A DNA stretch of 64,000 nt from positions 71,175 through 135,174 of the forward strand of contig MGUA01000008.1 of assembly GCA_001799735.1 (NCBI GenBank), in the 5' to 3' direction. Positions 38,377 to 57,900 of the stretch are shown piece after piece. Origin of the DNA: Elusimicrobia bacterium GWB2_63_22. GTDB lineage: Bacteria > Elusimicrobiota > Elusimicrobia > Elusimicrobiales > UBA9959. Under the pieces are notes generated by a model. It saw only the letters and a list, made by a program, of their open reading frames with translations, did no database searches and was not told the origin of the DNA. Every line of letters begins with the position of its first letter. Positions within the stretch are counted from its first letter, which is position 1. Made by a program: the position numbers and the translations under genes.

Positions 38377-40884
38377 ATGGGTTTAATGTCCCGCGTTCTG
38401 AAAGCGTACCGAGCGGCGGCCGGCGGCGTAAGCCGCGCGGCCGGTTCCCCGCGCCCCGGCGTCACGCTGGTGGAGCTGATGGTGGCCACGGCGATAATCT
38501 CCATCGGCGTGCTCGGCATGGTGGGTTCCTTCAATTACATCAACCGGGGCATACAGGGGCCCAAAGGCAAGTCCCTGGCCAATAACCTGGCCCAGGAAAA
38601 GATAGAAGTTTTAAAGAACAAGTCCTACTTCCGCGTGCTGGTGTCCACCGCTACCGATTTCGACCACAACTTCGACCCGAACGCCTACGAATACGACGTC
38701 GCCCCTAACGGCTCCGAAACTATGAACGTCGGCGGCATCAACTTCACCCGCCGCGTCCTGATAAAGAAGGTGACCGAAGTTTCCGGCGGCGGCCTGGCCC
38801 GGTTCGCCTATACGGTCCCGGACACGGGGCTTAAGGAAGTGGTGGTCTATGTGTCCTGGCTGGAAGGGAGCTCCTGGAAGAAGGTGGAGCTGCGCAATCT
38901 TCTCGGGAACCCGAACCGCACCAACCTGGGCGCCGCTTTCTCGGGCACGGTGCTGGAAGCCGGCACCGGCATTCCTATCGAGGGCGCCATAATCAGGGCC
39001 CAGGAGAACCCCGCCCGGTACGATATTACCGACGCCGCCGGGGTGTACAGTTTTGCCTGTGAGCCGGGCCAGTATACCCTGCAGGCGACCAAACCCGGTT
39101 ATTTCCAGTCGGTTTCCCCGCTCTACACTATAGAAACCACGCAGGTGCATGATTTTACCCTGACCCGGATGGTCAGCGGAACTGTGACCGGCTCGGCCTG
39201 GCTGCGCGACCACCTGGTGATAAGCCGCATAGTAGGAAGTTCGGTCAACAATTCCGGCTATTATCAGGAGTACGTGGAGATCTACAATCCCACCACCTGG
39301 ACCTGGACGGTCAACGGGGATATCGGCCTTAAGTTCCAGAAAGCGGGCGGGGAGAAGGCCGCCATCGGAATCGATCTCTACATACGCGACACTATTCCCA
39401 GCCAGGGCTATTACCTTTTCGCCAACACCGGCACCGTGAGCGCGGTGGGAGCCAATGTGGACGCGGACGCGACCTGGGACGAAAATATTATCCCCGTCGT
39501 AGAGGACGGGGGCGGGGAAGGTTCCGCCGCCGTGGAACTTTACCGCATCTCCGACGGGCGCATCCTGGACCAGGTAGGCTGGGACAGGAACAATGAAGGA
39601 AAAACGGCCCCTTTCTACGAGACGGACGGCTACGACCAGGATATAGGCCTTCAAATGGGCGAAACTTTTGTCCGGCATCCCAGCGCGGCGGGGGCAAACT
39701 CCTTCTACGGCCCCGCCTACGACACCAACGACAACGACGAGGATATAGAAGGCGTTACTTCGGCCGCCATCGGGACTCCCCCGAGCAATTCCCTTTCGGC
39801 CGCCAAGCCCGTGCTCACCGGCACCCCGGCGGCCGGGGCGCTGGTCTTCGCCAACGACAGCCTCTCCAGTTCCACCCAGGCCGCGCTCTCGGGCAGCTTC
39901 TCGCTGGCCAGCGTAGCTACGGGCTATTGGACCCTCTACATTTCCAGCGGCGTCAGCCTGAGCACCGGCGGGGTGTACGGCGGCACCGCCTCCGGGTTCT
40001 CGGTCTCGGCCGGCAGCGTCCTGCTCAGCAGCGACACCGCTTTCGGTTTTGTTTCAGGCCGGGTCACGGGCACCGACGGCGCCGGGCTGCCGGGCATAAA
40101 GGTAGCGGCCGGCGGCCGCCAGACCAGCACCCTCGCCGACGGCAGATATATACTTCCCGCCGACCCGGGCGAACAGACCGTGTTCGCCAATTACCAGACC
40201 GACAACCCCGACTATATCGAGATCTCCTCCGCCGGCGTCGTCGCCAGCCTCGGGGCGCTGACGCCCGACGTGGACTTTGTCCTGGTGACGGGCGGGAAGC
40301 TGCGCGGCTGGGTTACCACCAACGGCACGGACCCCCTGCCCAATGTGCCGGTTTCCGCTTTCAAGTACGGCATCGAACAGGGCAACAGCATCAGCGGCAA
40401 CGACGGTTATTACCTGATCTGGGGGTCCGGTATCTCCACCGGCACGTACGAAGTGGTGCCGCAGCTGGAGGCCGGGGAAACGCCCTTGCCTTCCACCCAC
40501 ACCGTCACCTTGTCGGCGGGCGAGGACTTGTTTGTCGGCACGTTCACGGTCAGCGGGGCGATGGGAAACCTGACCGGCTCGGTAAAAGCCGGCACTGCCG
40601 GCATAACCACGGGCGTGCTGGTGTACGCCACCTCCTCCACCATAACAGGCTCGCCCGTAATGCCCCCCACTATAGATGCGGCGGCCAGGGCCGGCAGCGT
40701 TATCTACTACGCCGTCTCCAGCAACGCGCAGGGAATGTACACGCTGCCGGTGCGCGGCGGCTACACCTATAACGTCTACGCCTGGTATACGACCTGGCCC
40801 AACGATACCCCGACCGTTACTCCCCGGCAAACTACCGCCACGGTGGCCGCGGGCGAAACGGTGGTTAAGGATTTCTCATGGTAA
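38377..40884 (+). CDS. Giant PilV-like prepilin with carboxypeptidase-regulatory and lamin-tail domains
   Basis: An 835-residue protein with a type IV prepilin leader: cleavage between Gly and Val in RPGVTLVELMVATAIISI (residues about 27-44) with Glu at +5. A carboxypeptidase regulatory-like beta domain follows (about 185-255, SGTVLEAGTGIPIEGAIIRA), then a lamin-tail-like domain (about 270-470, EYVEIYNPTTWTWTVNGDIG) and three more regulatory-like domains (about 557, 639 and 729 onward, such as SGRVTGTDGAGLPGIKV). Minor pilins are usually below 250 residues, so this would display a large adhesive or binding region at a pilus tip. It heads an eight-gene cluster; the next ATG overlaps its stop by seven bases. 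Confidence 0.88.
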   Translation: MGLMSRVLKAYRAAAGGVSRAAGSPRPGVTLVELMVATAIISIGVLGMVGSFNYINRGIQGPKGKSLANNLAQEKIEVLKNKSYFRVLVSTATDFDHNFDPNAYEYDVAPNGSETMNVGGINFTRRVLIKKVTEVSGGGLARFAYTVPDTGLKEVVVYVSWLEGSSWKKVELRNLLGNPNRTNLGAAFSGTVLEAGTGIPIEGAIIRAQENPARYDITDAAGVYSFACEPGQYTLQATKPGYFQSVSPLYTIETTQVHDFTLTRMVSGTVTGSAWLRDHLVISRIVGSSVNNSGYYQEYVEIYNPTTWTWTVNGDIGLKFQKAGGEKAAIGIDLYIRDTIPSQGYYLFANTGTVSAVGANVDADATWDENIIPVVEDGGGEGSAAVELYRISDGRILDQVGWDRNNEGKTAPFYETDGYDQDIGLQMGETFVRHPSAAGANSFYGPAYDTNDNDEDIEGVTSAAIGTPPSNSLSAAKPVLTGTPAAGALVFANDSLSSSTQAALSGSFSLASVATGYWTLYISSGVSLSTGGVYGGTASGFSVSAGSVLLSSDTAFGFVSGRVTGTDGAGLPGIKVAAGGRQTSTLADGRYILPADPGEQTVFANYQTDNPDYIEISSAGVVASLGALTPDVDFVLVTGGKLRGWVTTNGTDPLPNVPVSAFKYGIEQGNSISGNDGYYLIWGSGISTGTYEVVPQLEAGETPLPSTHTVTLSAGEDLFVGTFTVSGAMGNLTGSVKAGTAGITTGVLVYATSSTITGSPVMPPTIDAAARAGSVIYYAVSSNAQGMYTLPVRGGYTYNVYAWYTTWPNDTPTVTPRQTTATVAAGETVVKDFSW

Positions 40885-41390
40885 CCCCGCGCCGCAGGAA
40901 AGGCTACACGCTCATGGAGCTTATGGTCGTAGTGGCCATACTGGGGGTCATAGTTTCGGCCGCCCCCAGGCTCCTCAACGGCATCTACCGGTTCAGCCGC
41001 CTGTCCACGGCCAGGCTGGAGATACAGAAGAACGCCCGGGCCGCCCTCTCCAACATCAACCGCGGCCTGCGGCAGGCGCAGGCTTCCTCCGTGGTCATAG
41101 ACCAGCTCAGCGGCATGCCGCCGCATTCCAGGATAACCTTCGACCGCTACAAACCCGACGGTTCTATAGAGACGGTTTCTTATTATCAGGCCGGGAAGGT
41201 GCTTTATCTCTCTTCGCAAGGGGCCACCGGCAAGAAGGTGGCCGACGATCTGCGCTACCTGGCTTTTACCTATCCCAAAAGCGATGACGAGTCCATTATC
41301 TCCATCTCCGTGACCTTTGAAAGGGCCACCTACGAAGGCGGCGCCAAGGCGCTGCAGATGGCCGTGGAGAAGGTGAGGGTAATGAATTAG
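40878..41390 (+). CDS. Prepilin-like protein (PilW/GspJ-type minor pilin)
   Basis: A 170-residue protein with a class III signal RRKGYTLMELMVVVAILGVI (cleavage after Gly, Tyr at +1, Glu at +5), one hydrophobic helix and a beta-rich C-terminal domain. Such minor (pseudo)pilins initiate fibre assembly in type IV pili or type II secretion. The ATG lies inside the end of the preceding prepilin gene, so translation is coupled. PilW, GspH and GspJ are all possible relatives; the short length favours a minor pilin. Confidence 0.85.
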   Translation: MVTPRRRKGYTLMELMVVVAILGVIVSAAPRLLNGIYRFSRLSTARLEIQKNARAALSNINRGLRQAQASSVVIDQLSGMPPHSRITFDRYKPDGSIETVSYYQAGKVLYLSSQGATGKKVADDLRYLAFTYPKSDDESIISISVTFERATYEGGAKALQMAVEKVRVMN

Positions 41391-41404: not shown

Positions 41405-42859
41405 ATGTCTAAACTTGCGCGCCTTAAGATAAAATTCGGCCCGAGACCGGGGCAGATGGCCATAACCATGGTCATCACCTCCCTGCTGCTGCTGCTGATC
41501 CTTATCCCCATGCTGGACCATTACGTGAAGAACGAGGCCAAATGGTCGGTAAAAGAGCGGAAGAGCACCCTGGCCTTCCACCTGGCCGAGGCCGGCCTGG
41601 ACCGGGCCTACTGGAAGCTCAAGGAGAATGCCTCCAACTGGACCACGGTGGCCGGTGGCGATGTTATAGCCGGTTACAATGACGACGTGGCGTATGAGGA
41701 CATCCCTGGCGGCAAATATAAGGTGAAAATGGAACAGGGGGAGACCAACCTCCAGATCGTTATAACGGCCACCGGCAAAGACATAAGCGAGAACGAATAC
41801 CGCGCCATAAAAGCGATCTATACCAAGGAAGGCGTGACGGCCGCCCTGCAGGCCGGGTCGGTGGGCGCCGGCGGCAATGCCAACATCCATTGGGGCCCCA
41901 TGATGTCAGTGAGCGGCATGGTGCTCAAGGGCGGGTCCAACGAACTTTACCCCAGGAAATACGCCCGCGGCTCCATAACCAAGGGTGCCGGCGGCGGCGC
42001 CGGCAACTACGGCAACAGGGACGCCGACCCCAACCAGGCCAACAAAGGGCCGCATACCACGGGCGATCATATCGAGTGGTGGAGTTACAATGAACCGCCC
42101 GGCGTGCCGGACGTGCTGACCCCGGATACCTCCTATTACATGGAGCTGGCAAAAACGCAGACCTGCACTCCGGCCGGGACCATAGGCTGCTATTATGAGG
42201 GCAACCGCACCGGCGGTTCGGCTATCAACGGCCTGGTGGACACCACCTGTACGGTGGGCGCGGACCCTAAGGTCAGGTTCTTCACCGGCAATGCGGAATT
42301 CAAGAGCAATAAGTATTTCTGCGGGGTGCTTATAGTCCTGGGCAACCTTAGCTTCGGCGCCGGCGGCAAATCCCCGGAAGGGGATATTACGGCGGACCCG
42401 CCGCCTACGGCCTGGAAAGAATACCAGTGCAATGTCCCCACTCATAACGGGGAGACGGAGTCCGGAGACATGAGTACCTGGGCATACGAGGCGGACGGAG
42501 CTCATCCCGGCACCTGCAGCGGCCCGCATGGAGATACTGACGCCGTGGACGAATACCCCGGCGACGCCGGCTATCATGCCGTAAGTCCCTATAATTTCAA
42601 GACCGGCCGGGTGGCTACGGGCCATACGGGGTTTACAACCGGTACAGGTACGGAGCTCAGCTACAAAGGCTACATCTACGCCGGCGGCACTTTCGACAAT
42701 TCCGGCGGCGGCCGCATCTTCGGTTCCGTGCAGGTAGCCGGCGCGGGCGGCATGAGCGGCGGCGGCGATATTTTCTACGACAGCGGCCTGAATATCAAGT
42801 TCCTCAGCAACAATATAACCCGCTCGTCCTGGTACGAGGTGATAGCGGAGCCTTTCTGA
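41405..42859 (+). CDS. PilX-like membrane-anchored protein
   Basis: A 484-residue protein with a hydrophobic N-terminal segment (QMAITMVITSLLLLLILIPM, about residues 18-37) followed by the long charged helix characteristic of PilX (VKERKSTLAFHLAEAGLDRA), then a large beta-rich, Gly/Tyr-rich region with nine cysteines. The usual Glu at +5 is absent, as in many PilX-type proteins. It follows the small prepilin gene by 14 bases and its stop overlaps the ATG of the HprK-like kinase (TGATG). Together the three genes look like a minor-pilin complex. Confidence 0.75.
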   Translation: MSKLARLKIKFGPRPGQMAITMVITSLLLLLILIPMLDHYVKNEAKWSVKERKSTLAFHLAEAGLDRAYWKLKENASNWTTVAGGDVIAGYNDDVAYEDIPGGKYKVKMEQGETNLQIVITATGKDISENEYRAIKAIYTKEGVTAALQAGSVGAGGNANIHWGPMMSVSGMVLKGGSNELYPRKYARGSITKGAGGGAGNYGNRDADPNQANKGPHTTGDHIEWWSYNEPPGVPDVLTPDTSYYMELAKTQTCTPAGTIGCYYEGNRTGGSAINGLVDTTCTVGADPKVRFFTGNAEFKSNKYFCGVLIVLGNLSFGAGGKSPEGDITADPPPTAWKEYQCNVPTHNGETESGDMSTWAYEADGAHPGTCSGPHGDTDAVDEYPGDAGYHAVSPYNFKTGRVATGHTGFTTGTGTELSYKGYIYAGGTFDNSGGGRIFGSVQVAGAGGMSGGGDIFYDSGLNIKFLSNNITRSSWYEVIAEPF

Positions 42860-43638
42860 TGCGGATCGGCCTGGCGATAGCTGGTTTTGGGTTGAATTTT
42901 AAACAAGACCGCCCTGGTATCATTTCGGTTTTAAAGCGCAGGTACGGTCCTTTTGCGGGGCGGAGCCCCGGGACGTACCGGTTTTCGGCGGTCAGCCTCC
43001 CGGCCGCGCAAAATCCGTTCAAACCGGCCGTGCTCTTTGACGGGGAGGCCCTCAGCCTGGGCCGGGGCGACTTTAAGGCGGCGCTGCACCTGGCCTCTGG
43101 CGCCGGCACGCTGGCGGCGGCGCCTAACGAACAGTGCCTGGACGCTTTTTTGCGCTCTTTGTTGAGCGCCCTGCTTATCCGCTGCGGCGGTTTTATGCTG
43201 CATTCGGCCGGGCTGGTGAAGAACGGCAAGGCCTGGCTTTTTTTGGGCCGTTCCGGCGCCGGTAAGTCCACGCTGGCCAGGCTGGCCGCCGCCGCCGGCT
43301 GCAAAGTGCTCAGCGACGAGATAAACCTGCTGCGCCCGGAGGGGGGGCGGTTCATGGCGTACGGTTCTCCTTTCTGGGGCGAGATGCGGGCGGACGGCCG
43401 CCCCGGGCGCTGGCCGCTGGGCGGGATCTACCTCCTTAAAAAGGCGCGGGCCAACGCGGTCTCCCCCTGCGGGAGCGCCGAAGCCCTGAAGCTGCTACTG
43501 CGCTGCCTGCTGAATTTCGAAAAGGGCCCCGGGATTTCCGGGCTGGTGCTGGCCAACGCGGCCGCGCTGCTGAAAAAAAATAAATTCGCGCGGCTGGAGT
43601 TTTCAAAAAAGGACGCCTCTTTCCTGGACTGCGTATGA
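42859..43638 (+). CDS. HprK-like kinase of a peptide-modification cassette
   Basis: A 259-residue protein related to HPr kinase/phosphorylase. The Walker A loop is GRSGAGKST (130-138), followed by an acidic motif SDEINLL (from 152) and GSPFWGE (169-175), the arrangement seen in HprK-related proteins next to PqqD genes. It lacks the HPr-specific phosphatase region. In characterised lasso-peptide systems a related kinase phosphorylates a serine of the precursor, so phosphorylation of the peptide encoded at 43905 is a reasonable hypothesis. Its ATG overlaps the stop of the PilX-like gene and its end overlaps the PqqD gene. Confidence 0.85.
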   Translation: MRIGLAIAGFGLNFKQDRPGIISVLKRRYGPFAGRSPGTYRFSAVSLPAAQNPFKPAVLFDGEALSLGRGDFKAALHLASGAGTLAAAPNEQCLDAFLRSLLSALLIRCGGFMLHSAGLVKNGKAWLFLGRSGAGKSTLARLAAAAGCKVLSDEINLLRPEGGRFMAYGSPFWGEMRADGRPGRWPLGGIYLLKKARANAVSPCGSAEALKLLLRCLLNFEKGPGISGLVLANAAALLKKNKFARLEFSKKDASFLDCV

Positions 43639-43901
43639 CGCTGAAGATAAAAAAGGACCTGGCCTGCAGGCGCATAGCCGGCGAGCTGTTCATAGTGGAC
43701 GCCGCGGGTTCCCGCCTGCACGAGCTGAACGCGACCGGCGCCTTGCTCTGGGACTGCCTGGCCGCCGGCAAGTCTCCCGCCGCCGCCGCCGCCGCGCTGG
43801 CCGCGGAGTTCCAGGTAGACGGTGAGATCGCGGTTAAAGACGCAGACGGGTTCATTAAAGAGCTGCTTAAGGCGGGCCTGCTGTCCGAGTCCGGAGATTA
43901 A
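43635..43901 (+). CDS. PqqD-like peptide chaperone (RiPP recognition element)
   Basis: An 88-residue winged-helix protein. The motifs LHELNATGALLWDCLAAG and DADGFIKELLKAGLLS are typical of PqqD, which binds the leader of a precursor peptide and presents it to a radical SAM enzyme. It overlaps the kinase gene by four bases (ATGA) and is followed after three bases by the small precursor gene. Its presence here is the main clue that the cluster modifies a ribosomal peptide. Confidence 0.9.
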   Translation: MTLKIKKDLACRRIAGELFIVDAAGSRLHELNATGALLWDCLAAGKSPAAAAAALAAEFQVDGEIAVKDADGFIKELLKAGLLSESGD

Positions 43902-43904
43902 CCT

Positions 43905-44042
43905 GTGAAAAAGAAAAAGACCTACGAAAAACCCAAGCTGAAGACCGAGAAGATCTTTGAGACCGCGGCCCTGGCCTGCGGCAAATGTCTCACCGGCCCT
44001 ATCAGCCAGCTGGCCTGCAAGACGCTTAAAAAGTTCTCCTGA
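43905..44042 (+). CDS. Putative RiPP precursor peptide
   Basis: A 45-residue peptide starting at a GTG, with GGAG at 43893-43896 as ribosome binding site. It begins with a very basic KKKK run and then has YEKPKLKTEKIFETAALA (residues 7-24), a leader-like amphipathic segment, followed by CGKC and one more Cys (Cys25, Cys28, Cys38) and a C-terminal KKFS. Cys25 is directly preceded by Ala22-Leu23-Ala24, an AxA-like cleavage motif. It lies exactly between the PqqD-like gene (3-base gap) and the peptidase gene (3-base gap), so it is the likely substrate of all four neighbouring proteins. The product class (thioether, other crosslink) is unknown. Confidence 0.85.
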   Translation: MKKKKTYEKPKLKTEKIFETAALACGKCLTGPISQLACKTLKKFS

Positions 44043-44045
44043 ACC

Positions 44046-44369
44046 ATGAAGGCTTTCCGGCTTGAAGGCTCCAGCATGCTGCCCGTGTTCCGTCCCGGGC
44101 AGGCCGTGCTGGTCTCCCCGGAGCGCACCCGCCCCGGGGACTGCGCTGTCTACGTTTATCTGGGCCGCACCCTGCTGCACAGGGTGCTCGCCGTTTCGCC
44201 GGCCGGGGCCACCCTGGCCGACGACGCCGGCCGCCTGGAACCGCACTTTGTTCCCTGGGGCGACGTGCAGGGCCGCGTCCTGGGCGGCCCTCCCCTGTCC
44301 GCCGGCGCCCCCGGCCTTCTCTATTCCCGCGCCCGCCGGCTGTTCGGCCGGCTGTTCCTGAATGTCTGA
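44046..44369 (+). CDS. Miniature S26/S24-type peptidase
   Basis: A 107-residue protein with GSSMLPVFRPGQAVLVSPE (residues 8-26), the signature around the catalytic serine of signal peptidases (Ser10), and LLHRVLAV (His45), where the bacterial lysine would be and where eukaryal/archaeal-type signal peptidases have histidine. It has no membrane segment, unlike true signal peptidases. It begins three bases after the precursor stop and overlaps the radical SAM gene. Its likely job is to remove the leader, perhaps at the Ala-Leu-Ala site before Cys25. Non-proteolytic descendants exist, so activity is not certain. Confidence 0.8.
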   Translation: MKAFRLEGSSMLPVFRPGQAVLVSPERTRPGDCAVYVYLGRTLLHRVLAVSPAGATLADDAGRLEPHFVPWGDVQGRVLGGPPLSAGAPGLLYSRARRLFGRLFLNV

Positions 44370-45420
44370 CACTTCCGTCTCCGCGAAGCTCAACACCCTG
44401 TCGCTGGCCGGCAACATCCCCGTTTCGGTCACTATAGAACTGACCCGCCGCTGCCCGCTGGCTTGCCGGCATTGCTATCTGCCGGAGACGCGGGGCCGCG
44501 CCCCCGCGGGCAAAGAGCTGTCCGCCGGGGAGTGGGCGGGGATACTGCGCGGGCTGGCGCGCGCCGGGGGCATGTTCCTGGTGTTCACCGGCGGCGAGCC
44601 GCTGCTGCGGCCGGACCTGCCGGAGCTTTGCCGGTTCGCAAAAAGGCTAAATTTCGACGTGCGGATCTTTTCTACCGGCCTGGGCCTTACTTCCGCCCTG
44701 GCGGGGGAGTTTAAAACGGCGGGGGTGTCCTCCTTCGAGATGAGCTTTTACGGGCGCCCCGCCGCGCATGACCGGGTCACCGGCCTGAAGGGCTCCTTCA
44801 GCCGCAGCCTCGCCGCCGCCCGGCTGCTGCGGCGCGCCGGCCTGCGCGTAAAGATAAAAACGCCGTTGATGAGTTTAAATTCCGGGCAGGCCGCCTGGCT
44901 GAAAGAACTGGCGGCCCGGGAGGGCTTCGGCATAGCTTTCGACCCTGTGGTGGCCCCGGCCAACGACGGCGACAGGTCGGCCCTTGAATACCGGCTCTCC
45001 GGCTCCCGGCTGGCTGCAGCGGTGGAGCCTCTTGCCGGCGTACCGGTTCCGGTACGGCAGGGGGCGGGGGCACCCGACTTCCTCTGCGGCGCCGGCCGCA
45101 ATGTCTGCGCGGTGGGGCCTGACGGGGGGCTCTATCCCTGCCTGCAGATACCGGTAAGACTTGGGAACCTGGCTGTACGGTCTTTCGGTGATATCTGGAA
45201 AAACTCCCCCTGGCTTAAAAAGTGGCGCGCGGCCGGCAGCAAAGACCTGAAGGGCTGCGCCGGCTGCCGGGACCTGGACTTTTGCAGCCTCTGCCCGGGC
45301 ATAAGCCTGGTGGAAACAGGCGACATTTTCGCCCCCAACGCGGCGGCCTGCGCCATGGCCGGGCTGCAGCGGGCGCGGGTGAAGAAAACAAGCCGCGGTC
45401 AGGCCAAAAACTGCCCTTGA
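44362..45420 (+). CDS. Radical SAM/SPASM peptide maturase
   Basis: A 352-residue radical SAM enzyme. The 4Fe-4S motif is CPLACRHC (Cys31, Cys35, Cys38) and the SAM-binding segment follows with FTGGEPLLRPDL. The C-terminal SPASM region has its expected cysteines: CGAGRNVC, then GPDGGLYPC, then CAGCRDLDFCSLC and a last one in AAACAM. Such enzymes install crosslinks on peptides guided by a PqqD-type protein. Here the substrate is probably the peptide at 43905, with Cys residues as possible bridge points. The gene overlaps the peptidase gene by eight bases and ends the tight cluster. Confidence 0.93.
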   Translation: MSDTSVSAKLNTLSLAGNIPVSVTIELTRRCPLACRHCYLPETRGRAPAGKELSAGEWAGILRGLARAGGMFLVFTGGEPLLRPDLPELCRFAKRLNFDVRIFSTGLGLTSALAGEFKTAGVSSFEMSFYGRPAAHDRVTGLKGSFSRSLAAARLLRRAGLRVKIKTPLMSLNSGQAAWLKELAAREGFGIAFDPVVAPANDGDRSALEYRLSGSRLAAAVEPLAGVPVPVRQGAGAPDFLCGAGRNVCAVGPDGGLYPCLQIPVRLGNLAVRSFGDIWKNSPWLKKWRAAGSKDLKGCAGCRDLDFCSLCPGISLVETGDIFAPNAAACAMAGLQRARVKKTSRGQAKNCP

Positions 45421-45493: not shown

Positions 45494-45516
45494 CATTGGA
45501 TAAGTTTTATCCAATG
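45494..45516. promoter_or_regulatory. Perfect palindromic operator candidate
   Basis: CATTGGATAA (45494-45503) and TTATCCAATG (45507-45516) are perfect inverted repeats around a three-base spacer. The site lies 12 bases before the Rrf2 start codon and has the length expected for a dimeric Rrf2-type repressor, so autoregulation is likely. Confidence 0.7.
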
Positions 45517-45527
45517 ACGAGAAAAAT

Positions 45528-45938
45528 ATGAGAATGAACCGCACCTTGGCTTACGGATTGGCCTGCCTGCATTACCTGGGGCAGAACTGCGGCGGCTGCT
45601 GGAACCAGGTCGCCGATATCTCGCGCTTCCAGGGCCTGCCCGCGCCCTACTGCAACAAGGTGCTGCAGGCGCTGGTGCACGCCGGTTTTGTGGAATCGCA
45701 GAAGGGCAAGGGCTACCGCCTGCGCAAGGACCTCGACAAGATCAGCGTCTGGGAACTGATGGAAGCTTTTACCTTTAACCACGCGCCCGAGGCGCAGCGG
45801 GAAGAGATCCCCGGCAAGCTTTATAAAAAATTGCGGGAAGAGGTTAACCACTGGCTGGTCGGCCTCACGGTGCAGGATATTGTGGAGATGATGAAGGAAG
45901 AAGAGAGGGGCAAGGCCGAGCGGCCGGCTGAAGAATAG
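45528..45938 (+). CDS. Rrf2-family transcriptional regulator
   Basis: A 136-residue winged-helix regulator of the Rrf2 family. The family pattern is visible in LAYGLACLHYLGQN and GLPAPYCNKVLQALVHAGFV followed by GKGYRLRKDLDKISVWELMEA. Known members sense iron-sulfur clusters or nitric oxide through three cysteines in the C-terminal half. Here the four cysteines (13, 21, 24, 42) are all in the DNA-binding half and none in the usual sensor region, so sensing must differ or be absent. A palindrome lies just upstream, and the giant exported protein starts 46 bases downstream, which makes it a possible target. Confidence 0.85.
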   Translation: MRMNRTLAYGLACLHYLGQNCGGCWNQVADISRFQGLPAPYCNKVLQALVHAGFVESQKGKGYRLRKDLDKISVWELMEAFTFNHAPEAQREEIPGKLYKKLREEVNHWLVGLTVQDIVEMMKEEERGKAERPAEE

Positions 45939-45983: not shown

Positions 45984-48900
45984 ATGAGCGTGCACGGGAC
46001 GGGAAAAACACACCGGCGCGGCGGCCTTAAGGGCCTGCCGGGCGTCCTCCTGTCTTTGCTGCTGCCGGCCCTGTTGTCCGTGGGTGTTCCCGCCGCGCGG
46101 GCGGCTACCGCGGTATATCTGGGCGATACGGTCTCTTCCGTCAACCCGGGAGACGACGACGAGCGGCGCCTGAACCGCCTGCGCGGGTCGTCTGCGGTAG
46201 TCTATGCCAAGAATACCCTGGCCGGTCCGGTTACCCCGCCTACCACCGGCACCCAGATCACGCGTACGGCCGGGGGCACGGCCATGGTATGGTATTCAGA
46301 CCCGCTCGACGAGGTCACCATCAGCGGTAATGTCACTTTCAATATCTGGTCCATGGAGAGTTCCAACTCGGCTAACGCCGCCATAACCGGCGAGCTGCTT
46401 CGGGCCGACGCTTCGGGAACTCTCCTCTCCACCATAGCTACTGTTCGCACTACCACCACTGAGTTAAGCAAGTTCTCCCTCACCCTCTACAACTGGGTAA
46501 GGACGCCGGTGCCCACCGCCCTGGCCAACGGCGACAGGCTGGCCGTGAGGCTGTATGTGGACGACGCCAGCACCCTGTCCGCCGGCTTTACCGTGACCGT
46601 CTCTCTCGACGGCCCCACCGCCGGGGCCAGCGGCGACACCTGGGTGAGCATGGTGGAGACACTGGCGCCGGCCCGGCCCGTGATCGGTTCCATAACCGGC
46701 CTCACCCAGACCCAGTTCGGGGCCTCCTGGACGCTGGTGGAGGGGGCCACCGGCTATACGCTGGCCGCCTCGGTGAACCCGGGCGCCGCCCCGTCTCCGA
46801 TCTACGCCTCGGTAACTTCCGCTGACAGTCCGGCCCTGCTGAGCAGCCCCGCGCTCAGCCCCAACACTACCTATTATCCCTTTATCCGCACCGACGGGCC
46901 CGGCGCCTCCAGCTCCTGGGCCGCCTACCCGGTGCAGGTCACGCCGGCCTACGCCCCGTCCTTCTCCAATTTCACCAATATTTCCACCGGTTCCGCGCGG
47001 TTCAACTGGGCCGCCAACGGCAATCACGCGGCCACGCTCTACCACGTGGTCATGTCCACGGCGGCCGACCCCCTGTCCCCTTTCGGGGCGCCGGTCACCT
47101 CTTCTTTCACCTATAACACCTTCCTTTCTTCGGCCGGCCTCACGGCGAACACCGCCTACGCCTTCCGCGTGGCCGCCATAAACCATGCCGGGGTCTACAC
47201 GGAGTACACCCCGGTGGTCTCCGCCTATACGCTGGCGGCCCTGCCGGCGGCCGGCGCTTTTTCCGATGTTTCCGGGGCCGGCATAACGACGGCCTGGGCC
47301 GGCGGCGGCAACCCGGCCGGCACGCTGTACCGCCTGCTGGTCTCCACTGCGCCCGACCCGCTTTCTCCCGGCGGCGCGCCGGTCAGCCAGCATGAGACCT
47401 ATAACCTCGCTTTCAGCACCGCCGGCCTCTCCTTCAATACCACCTATTATTTCCGCGCGGCCGGCGTGAACGGGGACGGGATGACCGGGGATTATTTCTC
47501 CCCCGTAGCCACCGCTACGCTGGCGGGCCAGCCGGCCTTCTCCGCTTTCAGCGAGGAGACCTGGGCCTCCCTGCGTTTCGCCTGGACCAGTGGCAATCCG
47601 GCGGGCACTCTGTACCGGGTGCTCTCGTCCACCGCCCCGGACCCGCTCGCTCCTGCCGGCGCCGCGGTGGCGTCTTCCGACACCTATAATCTTTCTCTTT
47701 CCTCAACCGGGCTCTCGCCGGACACCCGCTATTATTTCCGCGCCGCCGCCGTCAACCATAACGGCTTGCTCACGGCCTATACCGCGCCCGAAAATCGGGC
47801 CACCCTGCTGGAGTTCGCACCCGCTTTCAGCGGTTTCTCCGGCGTGACCGAGACCGGCATCCCCTTCTCCTTCTCGGCCGGAGGCAACGCCTACCCGGGC
47901 ACGCTCTTCAGGGTAGTCTCGTCCACGGCCCCCGACCCGCTGGTCCCGGGCGGGGCGGCGGTGGTTTCCTCTGACACCTACAACAGTTCGCTGAATTTGT
48001 CCGGCCTCGCCCCGAACACCACCTATTATTTCAGCGCGGCCGGAGTAAACAAGGACGGCGTTCTGACGGCTTATACCGCCCCGGCAGGTACCTCTACGCT
48101 GGCCGCGCTGCCTTTCGGGCTGGATTTCACCAAGATCAGTTCCCAGACGATAAGGCTGGACTGGGCCGAGTCTAACGCTCCGGGCACGCGGTATCAGGTG
48201 CTGGTCTCCACGGCGCCCGACCCGCTCTCTCCTGCCGGGGCCGTGGTGACCAGTTCGGATACCTACAACCTTTACCTTTCCTCTACCGGCCTGGTGTACA
48301 CCACCGAGTACTTCTTCAGGGCCCGGGCCGTGAACAATAACGGCATGTTCACGGCCTGGAGCGCCATTGTCTCTACCACAACGCTCGCGCCGGGCACGCT
48401 GGCCGCCCCGCTGGCCGGCGCGCTGACGCCGCATATCTCTTCGATGACGGCCCTTTGGCAATTGTCGAACGGCGCTACCGGCTATACCCTGGCGGCCTCC
48501 CTCTACGCCGACGACCCGCCCGTCAGCATTTTCGCCTCCAGCACCACGGTGGGCAGCCTTGACTTGAGCGCCACCGTGCCCGGCCTTTCTCCTGACACCG
48601 TCTATTACCTCTTTGTGAGGGCGAACGGCGCGGGCGTGGTCAGCGCCTGGAACAAGTACGCCCCGGCCGCCACCCTGCTGCAGTATGCCCCGGCCTTCGG
48701 TTCTTTCGGCGCCATAACCGCGGCTTCCGCCGGTTTGTCCTGGTCCGGCGGCGGCAATCCGGGAGGCACGCTGTACCGGGTATTGTCCTCTACCGCGGCC
48801 GACCCGCTGACCCCCTCCGGCGCGGCGGTAGTTTCTTCCGATACGTATAACCTGTCGCTGACCTCTTCGTCCCTGGCCGCCAATACCGCCTATTACTTCA

Positions 48901-51900
48901 GGATAGCGGGCGTAAACAAGGACGGCGCGGTCACGGCCTATACGGCCGCGCGCGGCACCTCCACCCTGGCGGACCAGCCGGTTTTCTCCGGCTTCTCCGG
49001 CACCGGCACCGGGGCCATGACCTTCGCTTGGACCGCCGCCGGCAACCCGGCCGGCACGCTGTACCGCGTCCTCTCTTCCGCAGCTCCGGACCCGCTCTCG
49101 CCCGGCGGCGCGCCGGCGGCGTCCTCGGATACCTATAACGTTTCGCTGTCCACCGCCGGCCTGCTGCCCAATACCAGCTATTATTTCAGGGCCGCGGCGG
49201 TTAACAACGACGGGGTCCTGACCGCCTGGTCGGCGCCCCAGGTCAATCCCACGCTGCCGGAGGCGCCGTCGTTCCCCGCTTTCGGCACGGTGACGGATAC
49301 TTCCGCGGATTTCATGTGGGCGGCCAGCGGCAACCCGGCCGACACCCTGTACCGCGTGCTGGCTTCGCCGGCTCCCGACCCGCTGGACCCCGGCAGCGAA
49401 CCGGTCAGCTCTTCCGATACCTATAACCTCTACCTCAGCTCCTCCGGCCTGGCCCTGGACAAGGCCTACTATTTTGTCGTCGCGGCGCTGGGGCGCGATG
49501 GCCAGCCCGGCGCCTATACCGCGGCCCAGCGCGCCCGTACCCTGGTCCGCGCCCCGACATTCTCCGGTTTCAGCGAGGTGACGGCCGGTTCCGTAAGGGG
49601 CAACTGGACGGACAACGGCAACCCGTCCGGCACGCTGTACCGGGCGGCCGTCTCCGCGGCGCCCGATCCCCTTAACCCGGGCGCCGAGGCGGCCACGCTG
49701 ATAGATTCCTACGGCCTCTACGCCAGCAGCGCCGGCCTGGCCGCGGACACCACCTATTACTTCAGGGTGGCGGCGGTGAACGGCGACGCCGTGGAGACGG
49801 CGTATACCGCGGCCCTCGGCACCGCCACGCTTGCGGCCTACCCGCCGCTCTTCTCGGGCTTCAGCGATATCATGACCGAGTCCATCAGGGTGCTGTGGTC
49901 CCCGAACGGCAACGCCGACGGCACGCTGTACCGGGTGGCGGTCTCCACCGCGGCCGACCCGCTTAACCCGGCGGGCGCCAGGGTTTCCTATTCCGATACC
50001 TATGAACTCTCGCTGGCCACGGCCGGCCTGACCAGCAATACCCTCTATTATTTCCGCCTGGCCGCCGTGAACAAGAACGGCATCGCCACCGCGTATACCG
50101 AGGCGCAGTCGGAGCGCACGCTGCAGACCGTCACCAAGCTCTATCTGCTCGACAGCGTTTCCACGGCCAACCCGCCCGCCGACACTGGCGAGGAGCGGCG
50201 GCTCTCCCTGCAGCGCGGCTCCGCCGCGGTGACCTATACCAAAAGCACGATATCCGGCTCCGTTATCCCGCCTACCAGCGCCACGCAGATCACCAAAGTC
50301 GCCGGCTCGCTGGTGCAGACCTGGTACACCATGCCGCTGGACGCCGTTACCATAGTCAGCAGCGTTACCTACAATATCCGGGCCTATGAGAGCGCTACCG
50401 GGGCCAACGCCGCCGTGACGGCCGTGCTCTACCGCACCGACGGCTCCGGCGTGGTGATCTCCACCATTGCCACTGCCCTCGGCGGGCGCGCGGAACTGAC
50501 CGTGGCGGACTCGGCGCAGACCTGGACCACCCAGCCCGTGCCTACCACGCTCAATAACGGCGACAGGCTGGCGCTGCGCCTCTATATCGACGACTACAGC
50601 AACCTGGGTACGATGAGCGCCAACAGGAGCGTTTATGTTACGGTCGGCGGCGCCACGGCCAACGCCGCCGGCGACAGCTGGCTGCAGATCCTGGAGGCCC
50701 TGCGCCCGGCCAGGCCGGCCTCGGTCGCCATGGCCGGGGTGACGGCGTCCCAGATGTCCGCTTCCTGGTCGCTGGTGAACGAGACCACCGGTTATACGCT
50801 GGCCTCTTCCGTAAATCCCGGCGCGGAGCCGCAGCCGGTCTACTCCTCCAGCGAGACGCTCGGCAACCTGTCGGCCGTGCTGTCGGTGCCGGCCCTCTCG
50901 CCCAATACCACCTATTACCTTTACGTGAAGAGCAACGTTTTCGGCGCCTCCAGCGGCTGGCAGGTCTATCCCGGCACGGCCACGCTGCTGGCCAACGACC
51001 CGGCGTTCTCCGGCTTCGGCGAGGTGGCCTCCGGTTCCATCCTGTTCGACTGGTCGGCCAACGGCAACGCCGAGCCGGGCACGCTGTACCGGGTGCTGTC
51101 ATCCACGGCCCCCGATCCGCTCGTTCCTGCCGGGGCCGCCGTGGCTTCTTCTCACACTTACAACACTTTCCTGAGTTCCGCCGGGCTGGCCGCGGATACC
51201 AACTACTATTTCCGGGTGGCCGGCCTGAACCATAACAATGTGGCCACCGCCTATACCGCGGCGGCCGGCACGGCCACGCTGCTGGCTTTTCCGCCGGTTT
51301 TCTCCGGTTTCAGCGGTATCGCTACGGGCGCCATGCAGTTCAACTGGTCGGCCAACGGCAATGCCGGCGGCACGCTTTACCGCGTGGTCTCGTCCACGGC
51401 GGCGGACCCGCTGAACCCGGCCGGCGCGGTGGCGGTGTCTTCCGACACCTATAACCTGTACCTGGCGTCCGCGGGGCTGCTTGCGAACACCACCTACTAT
51501 TTTAAAGTGGCCGGGGTAAACAAGAACGGCGTGAGCACGGCCTACACCGCGGCGGCCGGCACGGCCACGCTGGCCTACGCCCCGGCGTTCAGCTCTTTTT
51601 CCGGGGTTTCCGCCGCGGCCGTCGGCCTGGCCTGGACTTCCGGCGGCAATCCCGGCGGCACGGTCTTCCGCGTTCTTTCTTCCACCGCGCCGGACCCGGC
51701 CAGCCCCGGCGGCGCGGCGGTCGCGGCCGCGGACACCTACGACCTGGCCTTGAGCTCGGCCGGGCTGGCTCCCGACACCACCTATTATTTCCGCGTGGCG
51801 GCCCTTAACCATAACGGCGCGGCCACGGCCTATACGGCGGCGGCGGGCACGGCGACGCTGCTGGGCTTCGCTCCGGCCTTCGCTGATTTCACCGAGGTGG

Positions 51901-54900
51901 CGGCCGCCTCCATGCGGTTTAATTTCTCGGCCAACGGCAACGCCGCCGGCACGCTGTACAGGGTGCTGTCGTCCACCGCGGCTGACCCGCTGAACCCGGC
52001 CGGGGCGGCCGTGGTTTCTTCCAGCACCTATAACCTGTCTCTTTCGTCCTCCGGGCTGGCGCCGGATACTACCCATTACTTTGTGGTGGCCGGCGTGAAC
52101 AAGAGCGGCGTCGCCACGGCCTATACGGCGGCGGCGGGCACGGCGACGCTGCTGGGCTTCGCCCCGGCCTTCACTAATTTCAGCGGGGTGGCCGAAGGGG
52201 CGCTGCAGTTTAATTTCTCGGCCAACGGCAACGCCGCGGGCACCCTTTACCGCGTGGTCTCTTCCACCGCGCCGGACCCGTTCTCGCCCGGCGGGGCCGC
52301 GGTGGTATCCTCTGACACCTACAACGCTTTCCTGGCTTCGTCCTCGCTGGCGGCCAATACCACCCATTATTTCGCGGCGGCCGGCGTGAACAAGAACGGC
52401 GTCCTCACCGCCTATACGGCCGCCGCCGGCACCTCCACGCTGGCCAGTACGCCCTCGGGCCTCTACGCCACCGGCGTAACGGTCAACTCCATGCAGGTTA
52501 ACTGGTCCGCCGCCGGCAACAGAACCCCCGGCACCTTATACAGGGTGATCGCCTCTACGGCCGCCGACCCCCTGGTGCCAGCCGGGGCGCCCGTGTCCTC
52601 TTCCGACACGTACAACCTCGACCTCAGCACGACGGGGCTTTCGCCCAGCAAGGGATATTATTTCCGGGCCCGGGCCATAAATAATAACGGCGTCCTGTCG
52701 GCCTGGACCGACCCGCCTTTCCACACCGCCACCCTGAACCCGGGCGAGATAGGCAGCCCGGCTTCAGGCTATGTCCCCGGCGTGCACGTCAGTTCGCTGG
52801 CCGCCAGCTGGGACCTGGTGACCTCCGCCACCGGCTATACGCTGGCGGCCTCGCTCAGCGCCGTTTACCCGCCGGTCTCGTTCGCGGCCTCCAGCGTGAC
52901 CATTAACGGCCAGGCGCAGGCCTACGTGTACGGCCTCGCCGCGGATACCGTCTATCACCTCTTCGTCCGGGCCAATGGCGAATACGTGTCGGGGGACTGG
53001 TACGCCTTCGCGCCCAGGGCCACGCTGCTGGAATTCGCCCCGGCTTTCACGGGTTTCTCCGGAGTGGTTTCCGATTCCGCGCAATTTAATTTCTCGGCCA
53101 ACGCCAACGTGTACCCGGGCACCAGGTTCAGGGTGCTGGTCTCCACCGCCCAGGAGCCGCTGTCGCCCGGCGGTGCCGTAGTCTCTTCTTCCGACACCTA
53201 TAATATAGCCCTGACCACCGCCGGCCTGGCGGCAGATACCACCTATTATTTCAGCGCGGCCGGCGTGAACAAGGACGGGGTGCTTACCGCCTATACGGCG
53301 GCCCAGGCCACGGCCACCTGGGCCAATAGCCCGGTCTTCTCGGGCTTCACGGGCGTGGCGCCCGGGGCCATGCAGTTCAACTGGACCCACAACGGCAACC
53401 GCGCCCCCGGCACCCTCTACCGGGTGCTGGTCTCCACCGCGCCCGATCCCGCGTCTCCGGGCAGCGCGGTGGTCAGCAGTTCGGAGACCTACAACCTCTA
53501 CCTGAGCACCGCCGGCTTGGCCGCTGATACCACCTATTATTTCCGGGCCGCGGCGGTAGGCGTCAGCGGCGTGACCACCGCCTATACCGCGCCGGCCGGT
53601 ACGGCCACGCTGGCGGCCTACCCGCCCGTTTTCACGGGGTTTACCGGCGTGGGTACGGGGGAGATACAGTTCAACTGGTCGGCCAACGGCAACCGTTCTC
53701 CCGGCACCCGCTACCGCGTGCTCGTCTCTACCGCGGCCGACCCGCTCTCGCCCGGCGGCGCCCTGGTGACCAGCTCGGATACCTATAACCTGTACCTGAG
53801 CAGCGCCGCGCTGACACCCAACGCCACGCGGTACTTTACCGTCTCCGCCGTCAACCAGAACGGCGTGCTCACGGATTATACCGCCGCGGCCGGCACGGCC
53901 ACGCTGGCCGCCATCCCGCTGACCGTGGTTTCTACTTTCAGCGCGGTGACGTCCGGCGGCTTCACTGCGGCCTGGAGCGCCAATTCAAATCCGGCCGGCA
54001 CGCTCTACTGGGTGCAGGTTTCCACGGCGCAGGACTTTAACGGCGGCGCGGCCGGGCAGGCGGCCTCCACGGCGCCGCTCAGCGGAGAGTCCTACTCCTT
54101 CTCGGGCCTGCTGTCCAACCGCGACTATTATTTCCGGGCCAGGGCGCAGAACTATAACGGGGTTTACAGCTCCTACGCCGAGCTTGGCTCCACCCGCACG
54201 CTGGGGCTGGCCGCGCCGTCGCCGCTGCCGGTGACGCAGGTCTCCACCTACTCTATAACGGCCTCCTGGTCTCTGGTGGACGGGGCCACCGGCTATACCC
54301 TGGCGGCCTCGGTTAACTCCGGCGTCGCCCCGTCTCCGGTTTACGCCTCCAGCGCCACCTCCGGCGCTTCCGCCGCCGTGTTCAGCCCCGCCCTGGCGCT
54401 GAACGCCACCTATTACCTCTTCGTGAAAGCGGGCGGCCCCGGAGACGAGAGCCCCTGGGCGGCGTATCCCGCCACCTCCACGCTGGCCAATGTTCCCGTG
54501 GCGCCCGGCAGCCCGTTCAGCGCCGTCAGCGACAACGGCTTCATCCTGTCCTGGGACGCCAATTCCAATCCGCTCGGGGCCACCAGGTACACGGTGCAGG
54601 TCTCTACAGCCCTGGATTTCAATTCCGGAGTCACAGACCAGGTGATCCTCGCCACGGCCCCGGCCGCCGGGCCCGGCGCCACGTTCAGCGGTCTGGCCAG
54701 CGACACCTATTATTACGCCAGGGTGCGCGCCGAGCATAACAACGGGAATTCCACTCCCTGGGTCAGCCTGGGCGTGGCCAAGACGCTGATCCTGGCCTCC
54801 CTGCACGAGTCCGGCGACGGCGTCCTGGTCTACGCGCAGTCCGGCAACAGCATGCCGCAGTTCCGCGACTACGACAGTTCCGCCAACTCCTTCAGCGCGG

Positions 54901-57900
54901 TGCGCAATACCATCGCCGGGGCGGCCGGCATGCTGTTCGCCGTGCGCACCAACCCGCTGACCACCAAGCAGGAGGCCGTCGCCGCTTACGTCAAGAGCGG
55001 CACCCTGCGCGTGCTCTGCACCGACGGCGCCAACTGGTACGAGGAATGGACGCAGACCGTGGGCGGCACGGACCTTACGCGGCGCTTCGATATCGCTTTC
55101 GAGACCAACAGCGGCGACGTGATGGTCCTCTACTCGCGCAACGCCTCCGGCACCAGCGAACTGGGCTACCGCACCAAGCCGGGCGCGGCAGGCTGCGGTT
55201 CGGCCAACTGGTCGGCCGCCGCCGTGCTGGACCCCGTCCGCACCGCCGGCGTGGTGCACTGGGTGAAGATGGCTCCTGACCGCCGCGCGGATCACAACAA
55301 TATCGCCGCGATCTGGACCGACGCCGCTTCCGACCTGTCGGCCATGGTCTGGAACGGCTCCTCCTGGGAGAACGAGCCCGCCGCCGCGCTGGAGACCTCG
55401 CTGGAGATCGTCAGCGCCTCGCAGGACGTGGAGAGCTTCGCCGTGGAGACCGAATCCCTGTCGGGCGATATCATGGTGACCTGGGGCCATTCCGGCGGCT
55501 CGGACGGCGTCAACGGCGTGCGCTACGCGACGGCCACCTGGACCGGCCTCACCCCGGAGCACACCTGGGGCACCGCCGTCAACGCGCCCAATTTCCTCGA
55601 CGACGCCACCAACCTGGACCTGGCCGCCAACCCCGCCTCGGACGAAATGGTCTTCGCCTCCATCGGCAATGCCGGCGCGGACCTGCAGGCCGGCTACTGG
55701 AACGGCCTGGTCTGGGCCAATTCGCGGAACCTGGATATCACGGCCCAGGCGCCGCTGGCTGGCACCAAGCTTGTGGCCGCCGCCTGGATAAGCGCTGGCG
55801 CCACCACGCGCAGCGTGTTCACCTATAACGACGCCGCGGCCACTAACATCGGCTGGTATGCCGGCAACGGGAGCACGTTTACCGCCCAGACCGACTTTGC
55901 GCCGGCGCCGGCCTTTGCCAACCCGCAGCGCTATTACGACCTCGAGCAGGACCCGGTGAACCGGGACAGGCTCATCTTCACGCTGGCCGATTCCAACGCC
56001 GACCTGTTCGCCAAGCGGCTGGTGATGACCTCCGTGCCGGGCTTCACCTGGACCAACGCCGACGGCGGCGCCGCGCTTGAGGCCAACCTTGGTTCCGCCA
56101 TAGGCGGAGGCCACTCTTTCGTCTTCTGGCCCGCCCCGCCGACCACCACCTTCGGCGCCAGCGCCTACCGGTTCTTCGCCAACACGGCCACCACCGACGT
56201 CGGCGCGCCGCTGGCGGCCCAGGACGCGCTGGCGGTGCTGCCGGCCGCCGGCGCGGCTTTCCGGCTGAGGGCCCTGGTTACCATAGGCCAGGTGGACCTG
56301 CCCGTCTCGGGGCAGGATTTCAAGCTGCAGTTCGCCGGCCAGGGCGACGGCACCTGCGCCGAGCCGTCCAACGGAACCCCGGCCGCCTACACCGACGTAA
56401 GCGCCGTTACGGCCATCGCCTTTAATAACGAGGCCCCGGCCGACCGCGCGGCCCTGACGCCCAATGCCGCCGACCCGCTCTACGGCGTGCAGGCCAATAT
56501 CAACCAGGTCTACGCCGAGTCCAACGGTTTCTTCAACTCGGCGGCCGGCATCAGCCGCAACCGCTCGGGCATGTGGGACCTGGCGCTGAAGGACAACGGG
56601 ATGTCCCCCGGCGCCGTGTACTGCCTGCGCCTGGTGAAGAACGATGGCCTCCCGCTGGAATACTATACCGTCTATCCCCGGGTCGTCTCCCCGTCGGCCC
56701 TGGTCCTCAACGAGGCCTATCCTTCCGGCACCGCGGCCGCCGACGACTGGGTGGAACTCTATAACAACACCCAGAGCACCGTGCCGCTGACCGGCTGGAA
56801 GCTGGATTACGTCGAGAATACCATCGCCCTGGGAGGTTCGGCCAATACGGTCTGGACCGGCCAGGCCGGCGATTATGTCAACGCCATGTCCACCTTCCTC
56901 GTCGCCGGTCTGCCGCTGGACCTCAACGGCGCGCAGAGCTACCACGTGCGGCTGCTGGACGCCGCCGGCGGGCTGGTGGACAGGGTGCAGTGGCCCGGCC
57001 CCGGCGCCTTGTCGCCGGGCCAGTCCTTCGCGCGCATCAGCGACGGCCACCCGGATTATTTCGAGATAGATCCCACGCCCACGCGCGGTTACGCGAATTC
57101 CGTTTCTACCGACGCGCTGACGATAAACGAGGCGGCCTACGGCGCCCTCGAGACCGAATTTGTGGAGCTCTACAGTTCCGAAGCGGTCAATACCCGCACC
57201 CTTACCGGTTACGCGCTGCGCAACGCGGCCGCCTCGGCCGCCGGAACCAGGTTCCGTTTCAGCAGGAAGGTCTACCCGCAGGATTTCACGGCGCTGGACG
57301 GTTCATCGGCGGACGATGAGGCCCGCGCCTACGCCTCCGTCTTCGGCGCTCAGGGCCTCTCCGAGGCCGGGGACTTCCTGGCCCTTGAGAATTCCAGCGG
57401 CTCCACGGTCAGCCAGCTGACCTGGCAGTCGGGCACCGCCTACACCCGGTACAATTACGCCGCGCAGCTGGTGTCCTACTCCAACCCCGCCCCGGCCCAG
57501 GCGGCCTATTCCATAGTCCGCGGCCCGGCCGACGGTTCGCACACCGGCGTGGACTCGGCCGATTTCTCGGTCTCCACCGGCACCACCCTGGGGGCACGAA
57601 ATAATAACGCCGGGAGCGCCCCCGCCAATACCCTGCTTTACCCGGACCCGGCCGCCGCTCCGCGCTACCTGTCGCGGCGCTTCCCGCTGCGGCTGACGCC
57701 GGGTTCGGATACCTCCGCGGGGCGCGGCAATACTATCGTGTTCTCGCGCCGCGGCGGCACCCCTGACCCCGGTTCGCCGCATATCTACCGGCTGCAGGAC
57801 ATCGGGTTCAGCCTGTCCTCCCTGGCGCCGCAGGCCACGGAGCAGTTCGGCCTGCAGTTCTACGACCAGGACGGCCTGGCGCTGGTTTCAGGCGCCTATT

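Follow-up and report, generated by a model that had tools for sequence, protein, structure and literature searches.

Among described ribosomally synthesized and post-translationally modified peptides (RiPPs), the nearest to the system reported here are the linear polyphosphorylated peptides (LPP) of the Paenibacillus alginolyticus lpp cluster (PMC13381572, 2026). This cluster encodes a RiPP recognition element (RRE), an HprK-like kinase, a peptidase resembling signal peptidase I (SpI), a nucleoside triphosphate (NTP) transferase and an MsbA-like transporter (PMC13381572). A further point of reference is the kinase PadeK, which phosphorylates the C-terminal Ser of its lasso peptide precursor, a residue conserved in kinase-bearing lasso clusters (PMC9266682). 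We analyzed a 64,000-nucleotide stretch (hereafter, the window) of Elusimicrobia bacterium GWB2_63_22, part of a 3.06-Mb Elusimicrobiota metagenome-assembled genome (MAG). Five adjoining genes in the window probably form a cassette for the biosynthesis of a RiPP, a single conserved small peptide made through steps performed by a PqqD protein, a radical S-adenosylmethionine (SAM) enzyme, a kinase and a peptidase, the product probably serving a giant exported protein encoded alongside. A sequence-only reading of the window had placed five overlapping or 3-base-spaced open reading frames (ORFs) between positions 42859 and 45420, and all five are located there:

42859..43638, plus strand: kinase of the HprK/PEPCK fold, 259 amino acids (aa)
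43635..43901, plus strand: PqqD-type discrete RRE, 88 aa, overlapping the kinase gene by 4 nucleotides (nt)
43905..44042, plus strand: precursor peptide, 45 aa, GTG start, 3-nt gap after the PqqD gene
44046..44369, plus strand: small S26B-type (Sec11/archaeal-like) peptidase, 107 aa, 3-nt gap after the peptide gene
44362..45420, plus strand: radical SAM/SPASM peptide maturase, 352 aa, overlapping the peptidase gene by 8 nt

A discrete RRE, an HprK-like kinase and a peptidase of the SpI/archaeal type with Ser-His-Asp residues are present in both this cassette and the LPP cluster, the likeness being established here at the motif level. The pairing of a kinase with a soluble peptidase, which the sequence-only reading had regarded as an unusual addition to a RiPP pathway, thus has a precedent in the LPP trio of RRE, HprK-like kinase and SpI-like peptidase (PMC13381572). 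The unusual element is instead the radical SAM enzyme joined to this trio: the term 'radical SAM' is absent from the main text of the LPP paper (PMC13381572), whereas the cassette includes a radical SAM/SPASM enzyme. Among the described RiPP families, we found none in which a radical SAM/SPASM maturase accompanies the trio of RRE, HprK-like kinase and signal-peptidase-like protein, and a literature search on Elusimicrobia RiPPs yielded no relevant paper. Because several LPP features are lacking as well, the cassette is best seen as a new variant and not as an LPP.

The precursor peptide and its conservation

By the measure of sequence conservation, the peptide is a real gene and no chance ORF, because its homologues are detected in 54 of the 341 Elusimicrobiota genomes, spanning 25 genera and about 14 families, in a profile search with E ~1e-24 per genome, and because it evolves under purifying selection, with a median ratio of nonsynonymous to synonymous differences (pN/pS) of 0.16 (153 pairs among 18 same-length homologues; mean pS 0.61). 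The GTG start and the length of 45 aa were both confirmed at 43905-44042; the sequence GGAG is located 8 nt 5' of the GTG, which is exceptional given that the start codon in most relatives is ATG. When each window protein was compared with the fetched loci using tblastn, almost all of them had the peptide where it was expected; the cassette and the peptide are conserved in ~50 loci, and the same cassette genes adjoin the peptide in nearly every locus examined. The proposal that PqqD, a radical SAM/SPASM enzyme and this peptide form the core of a RiPP pathway is supported by these comparisons: other genomes also carry the cassette, almost all intact relatives have the small ORF, and the ORF shows codon conservation.

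Of the five cassette products, the peptide usually shows the highest conservation, with identity of ~50-93%, above that of the maturase (91% vs 67% at locus L003, 84% vs 41% at locus L040), and is usually present in a single copy per genome. The window peptide matched no Pfam or NCBIfam model above chance. No homologue was found in the plasmids searched, and none was confirmed in the IMG/VR viral contigs searched.

An iterated profile search produced 50 distinct peptides, mostly of 44-53 aa, including the copy from a split locus in genome G041 and one (locus L081) with an uncertain start. Their consensus consists of a Lys-rich start followed by YxKPxhK(S/T)EK(V/I)FETAALACGKCxxGxPxxxxxCxxxxxxS-stop, where Tyr, Pro, Glu19, Leu23, the three Cys, Lys27 and the terminal Ser are conserved. 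The window precursor accordingly contains YEKPKL (Y7-P10-L12), FET (18-20), the core C25-G-K-C28...C38, and Ser45 at the C-terminus. The YxxP motif, the Tyr-to-Glu19 distance of 12 and the L-x-C-x-K-C signature are each found in 50/50 peptides, with the third Cys 9-11 residues further on; FET is present in 36/50, its Glu being invariant. All 50 peptides end with Ser, 49 of them with Cys-x6-Ser-stop. Between the last Cys and the terminal Ser, the sequence is highly variable, and the residues beside this stretch vary as well, so selection seems to act on this Ser in its own right. The motif YxxPx-hydrophobic, or [Y/W]xxPx[LVIAFY], binds the RRE in lasso and LPP leaders (PMC13381572); the conservation of YxxPx[hydrophobic] in the precursor, together with a PqqD-type RRE and a radical SAM/SPASM enzyme, is the combination expected of a discrete-RRE RiPP.

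Of the anticipated pattern, a conserved leader followed by a variable C-terminus, only the first part held: the leader is conserved, but so is the C-terminal core, with three Cys and the terminal Ser invariant. Such a core suggests that the pathway makes a single conserved product and not an antimicrobial that diversifies.

Two gene orders were observed, kinase-PqqD-peptide-peptidase-maturase in the window's family and kinase-PqqD-maturase-peptide-peptidase in other families. The maturase tree separates the two orders and keeps family groups together, which is consistent with old, mainly vertical inheritance within Elusimicrobiota. A single maturase scan of genome contigs yielded 15 loci, all with titles referring to Elusimicrobia or an unassigned bacterium, from which a restriction to the phylum does not follow.

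Cassette enzymes and a proposed maturation route

The kinase retains the P-loop G130-x-SGAGKST, SDE (152-154) and PFWGE (171-175) motifs, and its AlphaFold (AF2) model, with a mean predicted confidence (pLDDT) of 94, adopts the PEPCK fold (Z 13.1, 4.4 A over 230 residues). The Foldseek list includes HprK structures as well, and the match to NCBIfam HprK_rel_A (E 4e-9) is under the cut-off. The PqqD protein matches Pfam PqqD above the cut-off (E 2.6e-14) and NCBIfam lasso_PqqD under it (44 bits); among solved chains, the lasso RREs TbiB1 and TfuB1 are nearest to it, and it is the sole PqqD in the window's genome. In the maturase, Radical_SAM (1.3e-19) and SPASM (8e-9) domains were identified with Pfam. 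Its CxxxCxxC motif (31-38) and seven SPASM-region Cys (242, 260, 299, 302, 308, 311 and 330) are near-invariant in 54 homologues, and its nearest solved relatives in PDB are SkfB (3e-17) and PqqE (9e-16).

The profile derived from the peptidase alignment matched SEC11A (6e-8) and SEC11C (1e-7) ahead of bacterial signal peptidase I. The AF2 model of the peptidase (pLDDT 91.5) was aligned to SipA with Z 9.0 and to LepB with Z 8.0 (VIA-align); because the Foldseek search gave no E < 0.001, the fold assignment rests on the SEC11 profile, the motifs and VIA-align. The putative catalytic residues S10, H45 and D60 are comparable, at the motif level only, to the S29/H68/D93 triad of LppS (PMC13381572). 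The base is His45, not Lys, and is invariant in 49/49, and Asp60 is invariant in a 31-row alignment. For the proposed nucleophile, the window peptidase has Ser and several distant families have Cys, with GSSM replaced by GGCM (L058, L064, L066, L069, L070, L119); this natural Ser/Cys swap suggests that the site is catalytic.

Leader binding, core modification, phosphorylation of Ser45 and leader removal make up the simplest scheme that uses every part; each chemical step in it, and the role of the product, is what we infer from the genes, their conservation, the catalytic motifs, the predicted folds and the genetic linkage. The ribosome would produce the Lys-rich 45-aa precursor, and the stand-alone PqqD protein would bind the YxKPxh motif of its leader and present it to the enzymes. 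The radical SAM/SPASM enzyme would then modify the CxKC...C core, most likely via thioether or other crosslinks that involve the invariant Cys and perhaps the invariant Lys27; Cys thioethers are our leading guess for the bond, with Lys27 as the second candidate partner. The HprK-like kinase would phosphorylate Ser45, the invariant C-terminal residue, in the manner of PadeK acting on paeninodin, and the Sec11-like peptidase (Ser10/His45/Asp60) would remove the leader. By analogy with LPP, where cleavage is reduced by mutations at F-3, E-2 and T-1 (PMC13381572), the cut would fall after FET20. A cut after ALA24, following the small-x-small rule of signal peptidases, was the first choice and, given the LPP cleavage data, was demoted to an alternative; the ALA or ALG preceding Cys fits the small residues of such sites. 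The mature peptide would probably serve the giant exported protein, in maturation, docking or regulation.

The phosphorylation step draws on several parallels. An HprK-like kinase accompanied by a C-terminal Ser in 50/50 peptides is the pattern of paeninodin-type kinase-tailored peptides. An unannotated lasso-type locus on a Paenibacillus plasmid encodes a homologous kinase (hhalign E 3.6e-11) and a likely precursor ending in Ser, and two sister loci with a radical SAM enzyme and a kinase in other Elusimicrobiota (L075, L077) encode YxKP precursors that also end in Ser. These sister cassettes (L075:9165-9752, L077:8498-8794 (minus strand)), consisting of a kinase, a radical SAM enzyme, a PqqD and an S26-like protein with multi-Cys precursors, seem to represent a related family matched to no described one.

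Giant exported proteins and other neighbors

Three lines of evidence link the cassette to giant exported proteins: adjacency, four in-frame peptidase fusions and co-occurrence in 23 of 25 genomes. In the window, the region downstream of the cassette contains the following features:

45494..45516, no strand: perfect 10-bp inverted repeat CATTGGATAA-GTT-TTATCCAATG, upstream of the Rrf2 gene
45528..45938, plus strand: Rrf2-family transcriptional regulator (Pfam Rrf2 3e-17), between the cassette and the giant
45984..59669, plus strand: giant exported FN3/LTD/beta-propeller protein, 4561 aa (Pfam), companion of the cassette

Most loci with sufficient flanking sequence encode a very large protein with a signal peptide downstream of the cassette. 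Four loci (L050, L051, L054, L061) encode an in-frame fusion in which a hydrophobic segment links the peptidase to an exported protein. The fusion partners in L050, L051 and L054 are giant 'RIKTVEWN' proteins with the peptidase domain at the start of the ORF, and in L061 (9857-12571), a BNR/sortilin-type protein. In genome G041, the cassette is split: the kinase, PqqD and maturase genes are at one locus, and the peptide and peptidase genes, together with that for a giant with a length of at least 3462 aa, are on another contig (L119:6965-17999).

A profile for the N-terminal domain of the giants (ATRIKTVEWNFGG..., 'ATRIKTVEW') matched 25 of the 341 genomes, in ORFs of up to 10,482 aa. The peptide is present in 23 of these 25 genomes vs 54/341 overall (Fisher 8e-19, a P-value that ignores shared ancestry). 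The giant domain and the peptide are on one contig in 19/23 genomes, within 5 kb in 18, and on different contigs in G030, G123, G215 and G027. The two genomes with the giant domain and no peptide are G310, a partial genome, and G082, where the cassette reaches the contig end. Because the N-terminal domain of the window giant is different from the profiled one, the partner giants seem to be exchangeable. Exported ORFs of ~9,000-10,500 aa with the common N-terminal domain were found in G122:C38, G078:C3, G318:C217, G123:C11 and others, and the domain is spread over about ten families. Elusimicrobiota are rich in huge proteins of unknown function (PMC11573180).

Palindromes similar to that at 45494..45516 precede the Rrf2 gene in many relatives, and the window palindrome is likely the operator of this regulator. 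Upstream of the kinase, there is a row of three exported or prepilin-type genes:

38377..40884, plus strand: large prepilin-type protein with CarboxypepD_reg domains (Pfam), upstream in relatives too
40878..41390, plus strand: prepilin-type protein with an N-terminal methylation motif (Pfam N_methyl 1.4e-8), upstream in relatives too
41405..42859, plus strand: PilX/pseudopilin-like exported protein, its stop overlapping the kinase ATG (TGATG)

The third product has no Pfam match; its neighbors carry N_methyl prepilin motifs, and the arrangement is retained in the window's family. Because its stop overlaps the kinase start, the operon probably begins upstream of the kinase, with the cassette as the distal part of a longer operon. 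In distant families (L048, L052, L066, L069, L071 and others), a conserved HD-domain (HD-GYP-like) protein of ~370 aa (MRLSDILKK...) takes the place of the prepilin genes upstream of the kinase.

Comparison with described systems and weighing of the evidence

The leaders of the cassette and LPP precursors share YxxP and the FET end. However, the LPP leader consensus YxxPxVLxHQxIxFETxxS is not matched in full, the cassette leaders lacking VLxHQ and the Ser at +3, and the Y-to-F distance is 11 in the cassette precursor and 13 in LPP. The phosphorylated core residue of LPP is Ser3, whereas Leu is the third residue after the FET position in 50/50 peptides. The cassette also differs in its three-Cys core, C-terminal Ser, short conserved core and phylum. 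Membership in LPP was rejected given the partial leader consensus, the missing Ser3 and the lack of a transporter or NTP transferase among the immediate neighbors in the window. A related alternative is that the product is an LPP-like linear phosphopeptide, modified chiefly by phosphorylation, with the radical SAM enzyme playing a minor part, such as epimerization or formation of a C-C bond at a non-Cys residue. Although the same trio and FET leader end (PMC13381572) and the existence of a homologous Bacillota kinase whose cluster has no radical SAM enzyme speak for it, we consider this unlikely, given the three invariant Cys with the near-invariant CGKC, the presence of a radical SAM enzyme in every complete cassette and the lack of the LPP acceptor Ser at core position 3.

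The Butyrivibrio plasmid pNP243 (L125:6572-8595) encodes a kinase, a 57-aa Cys-rich YVKP peptide, a PqqD and an S24/S26 peptidase, without a radical SAM enzyme. This LPP-like set, which is not annotated as such, adjoins genes for an ABC transporter and a glycosyltransferase; by hhalign, its kinase and peptidase match those of the cassette with E-values of 1.2e-14 and 3.2e-6, respectively. Thus, the trio exists elsewhere without the maturase.

With paeninodin-type lasso peptides (PadeK/ThcoK), the cassette shares the HprK-like kinase, the conserved C-terminal Ser of the precursor and the PqqD-type RRE (PMC9266682). It differs in having a radical SAM enzyme and an S26-type peptidase instead of the C and B2 proteins; because both the B2 leader peptidase and the C macrolactam synthetase are absent, membership was rejected. 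SynChlorMet (NCBIfam ScmC/ScmD/ScmE/ScmF) likewise unites HprK-like, PqqD-like and radical SAM/SPASM proteins in one cassette, the window cassette differing in having one radical SAM enzyme; it was rejected on scores far under the curated cut-offs (ScmC 29.7 vs 125, ScmE 93.8 vs 400), and the family search also remained under the cut-off.

The PqqD protein, the radical SAM/SPASM enzyme and the small conserved peptide also recall the biosynthesis of pyrroloquinoline quinone (PQQ; PqqA/D/E), to which the cassette adds a kinase and a peptidase. PQQ membership was rejected because PqqE scored 111.5 vs a cut-off of 381.35 bits, the PQQ_PqqD model was unmatched and the core lacks Glu-x3-Tyr. A broader possibility, a PQQ- or mycofactocin-like pathway making a peptide-derived redox cofactor for beta-propeller or other exported enzymes, would fit the conserved, non-diversifying peptide, the fact that PqqE has the best NCBIfam score and the PQQ_2-type propellers next door in the window. 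It appears improbable, however, because the cassette lacks PqqB/PqqC-like genes along with the Glu-x3-Tyr core, no PQQ_2-type propeller was found in two partner giants scanned, and the kinase and the terminal Ser are left unexplained.

A radical SAM/SPASM enzyme, a PqqD and a small peptide make up a typical sactipeptide or ranthipeptide locus. The cassette resembles SkfA/SkfB in that its radical SAM/SPASM maturase adjoins a Cys-containing precursor, a combination characteristic of these classes, and SkfB is the top PDB match; to our knowledge, classical systems include neither a kinase nor an S26-type peptidase. This resemblance favors a secreted antimicrobial or signaling RiPP, which is nevertheless even less probable, the core being nearly invariant phylum-wide and usually encoded once per genome, with no adjoining transporter and with linkage to giant exported proteins; the variable-core version was rejected because the core is conserved. 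The least probable alternative, an unmodified small metal- or Fe-S-binding protein whose neighbors act on other substrates, could invoke ligation by CxKC...C and a weak, chance-level similarity to ferredoxin-type models, but is at odds with the YxxP RRE motif beside the only PqqD in the genome and with the presence of maturase genes in the same genome as the peptide in the loci examined.

Several observations, in addition to a co-occurrence P-value that leaves shared ancestry out of account, weigh against a crosslinked, phosphorylated RiPP that serves the giants. The window genome itself lacks the 'ATRIKTVEW' domain used in the co-occurrence test. No homologous precursor was found in G158 and G226, and in G082 the contig ends at the cassette; fragmentation of the MAGs accounts for some of the missing parts, not necessarily all. 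At the sister locus L073, which includes a kinase, the candidate peptide ends in Leu, so the presence of the kinase does not force a C-terminal Ser. The CxxC...C peptide could bind metal rather than be crosslinked. Finally, no transporter or nucleotidyltransferase adjoins the cassette among the window's immediate neighbors, unlike in LPP, the relatives not all having been profile-scanned.

Maturation, docking, capping and regulation all fit as the role of the peptide in relation to the giants. A bolder proposal, which we put forward only tentatively, is that a phylum-wide fixed, phosphorylated and crosslinked peptide is part of the giant exported proteins of up to ~10,000 residues, where it would mature, cap, anchor or switch these surface proteins, some of which are fused to the leader peptidase. 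A housekeeping role, rather than that of an antibiotic, is suggested by the invariance of the core and by the genetic linkage to the giants, and would be unusual for a RiPP. The cassette provides naturally occurring replacements of a Ser nucleophile by Cys in a Sec11-like fold, would allow phosphorylation of a C-terminal Ser to be tested cleanly in a setting other than lasso peptides, and gives a first testable handle on the maturation of the giant proteins of Elusimicrobiota.

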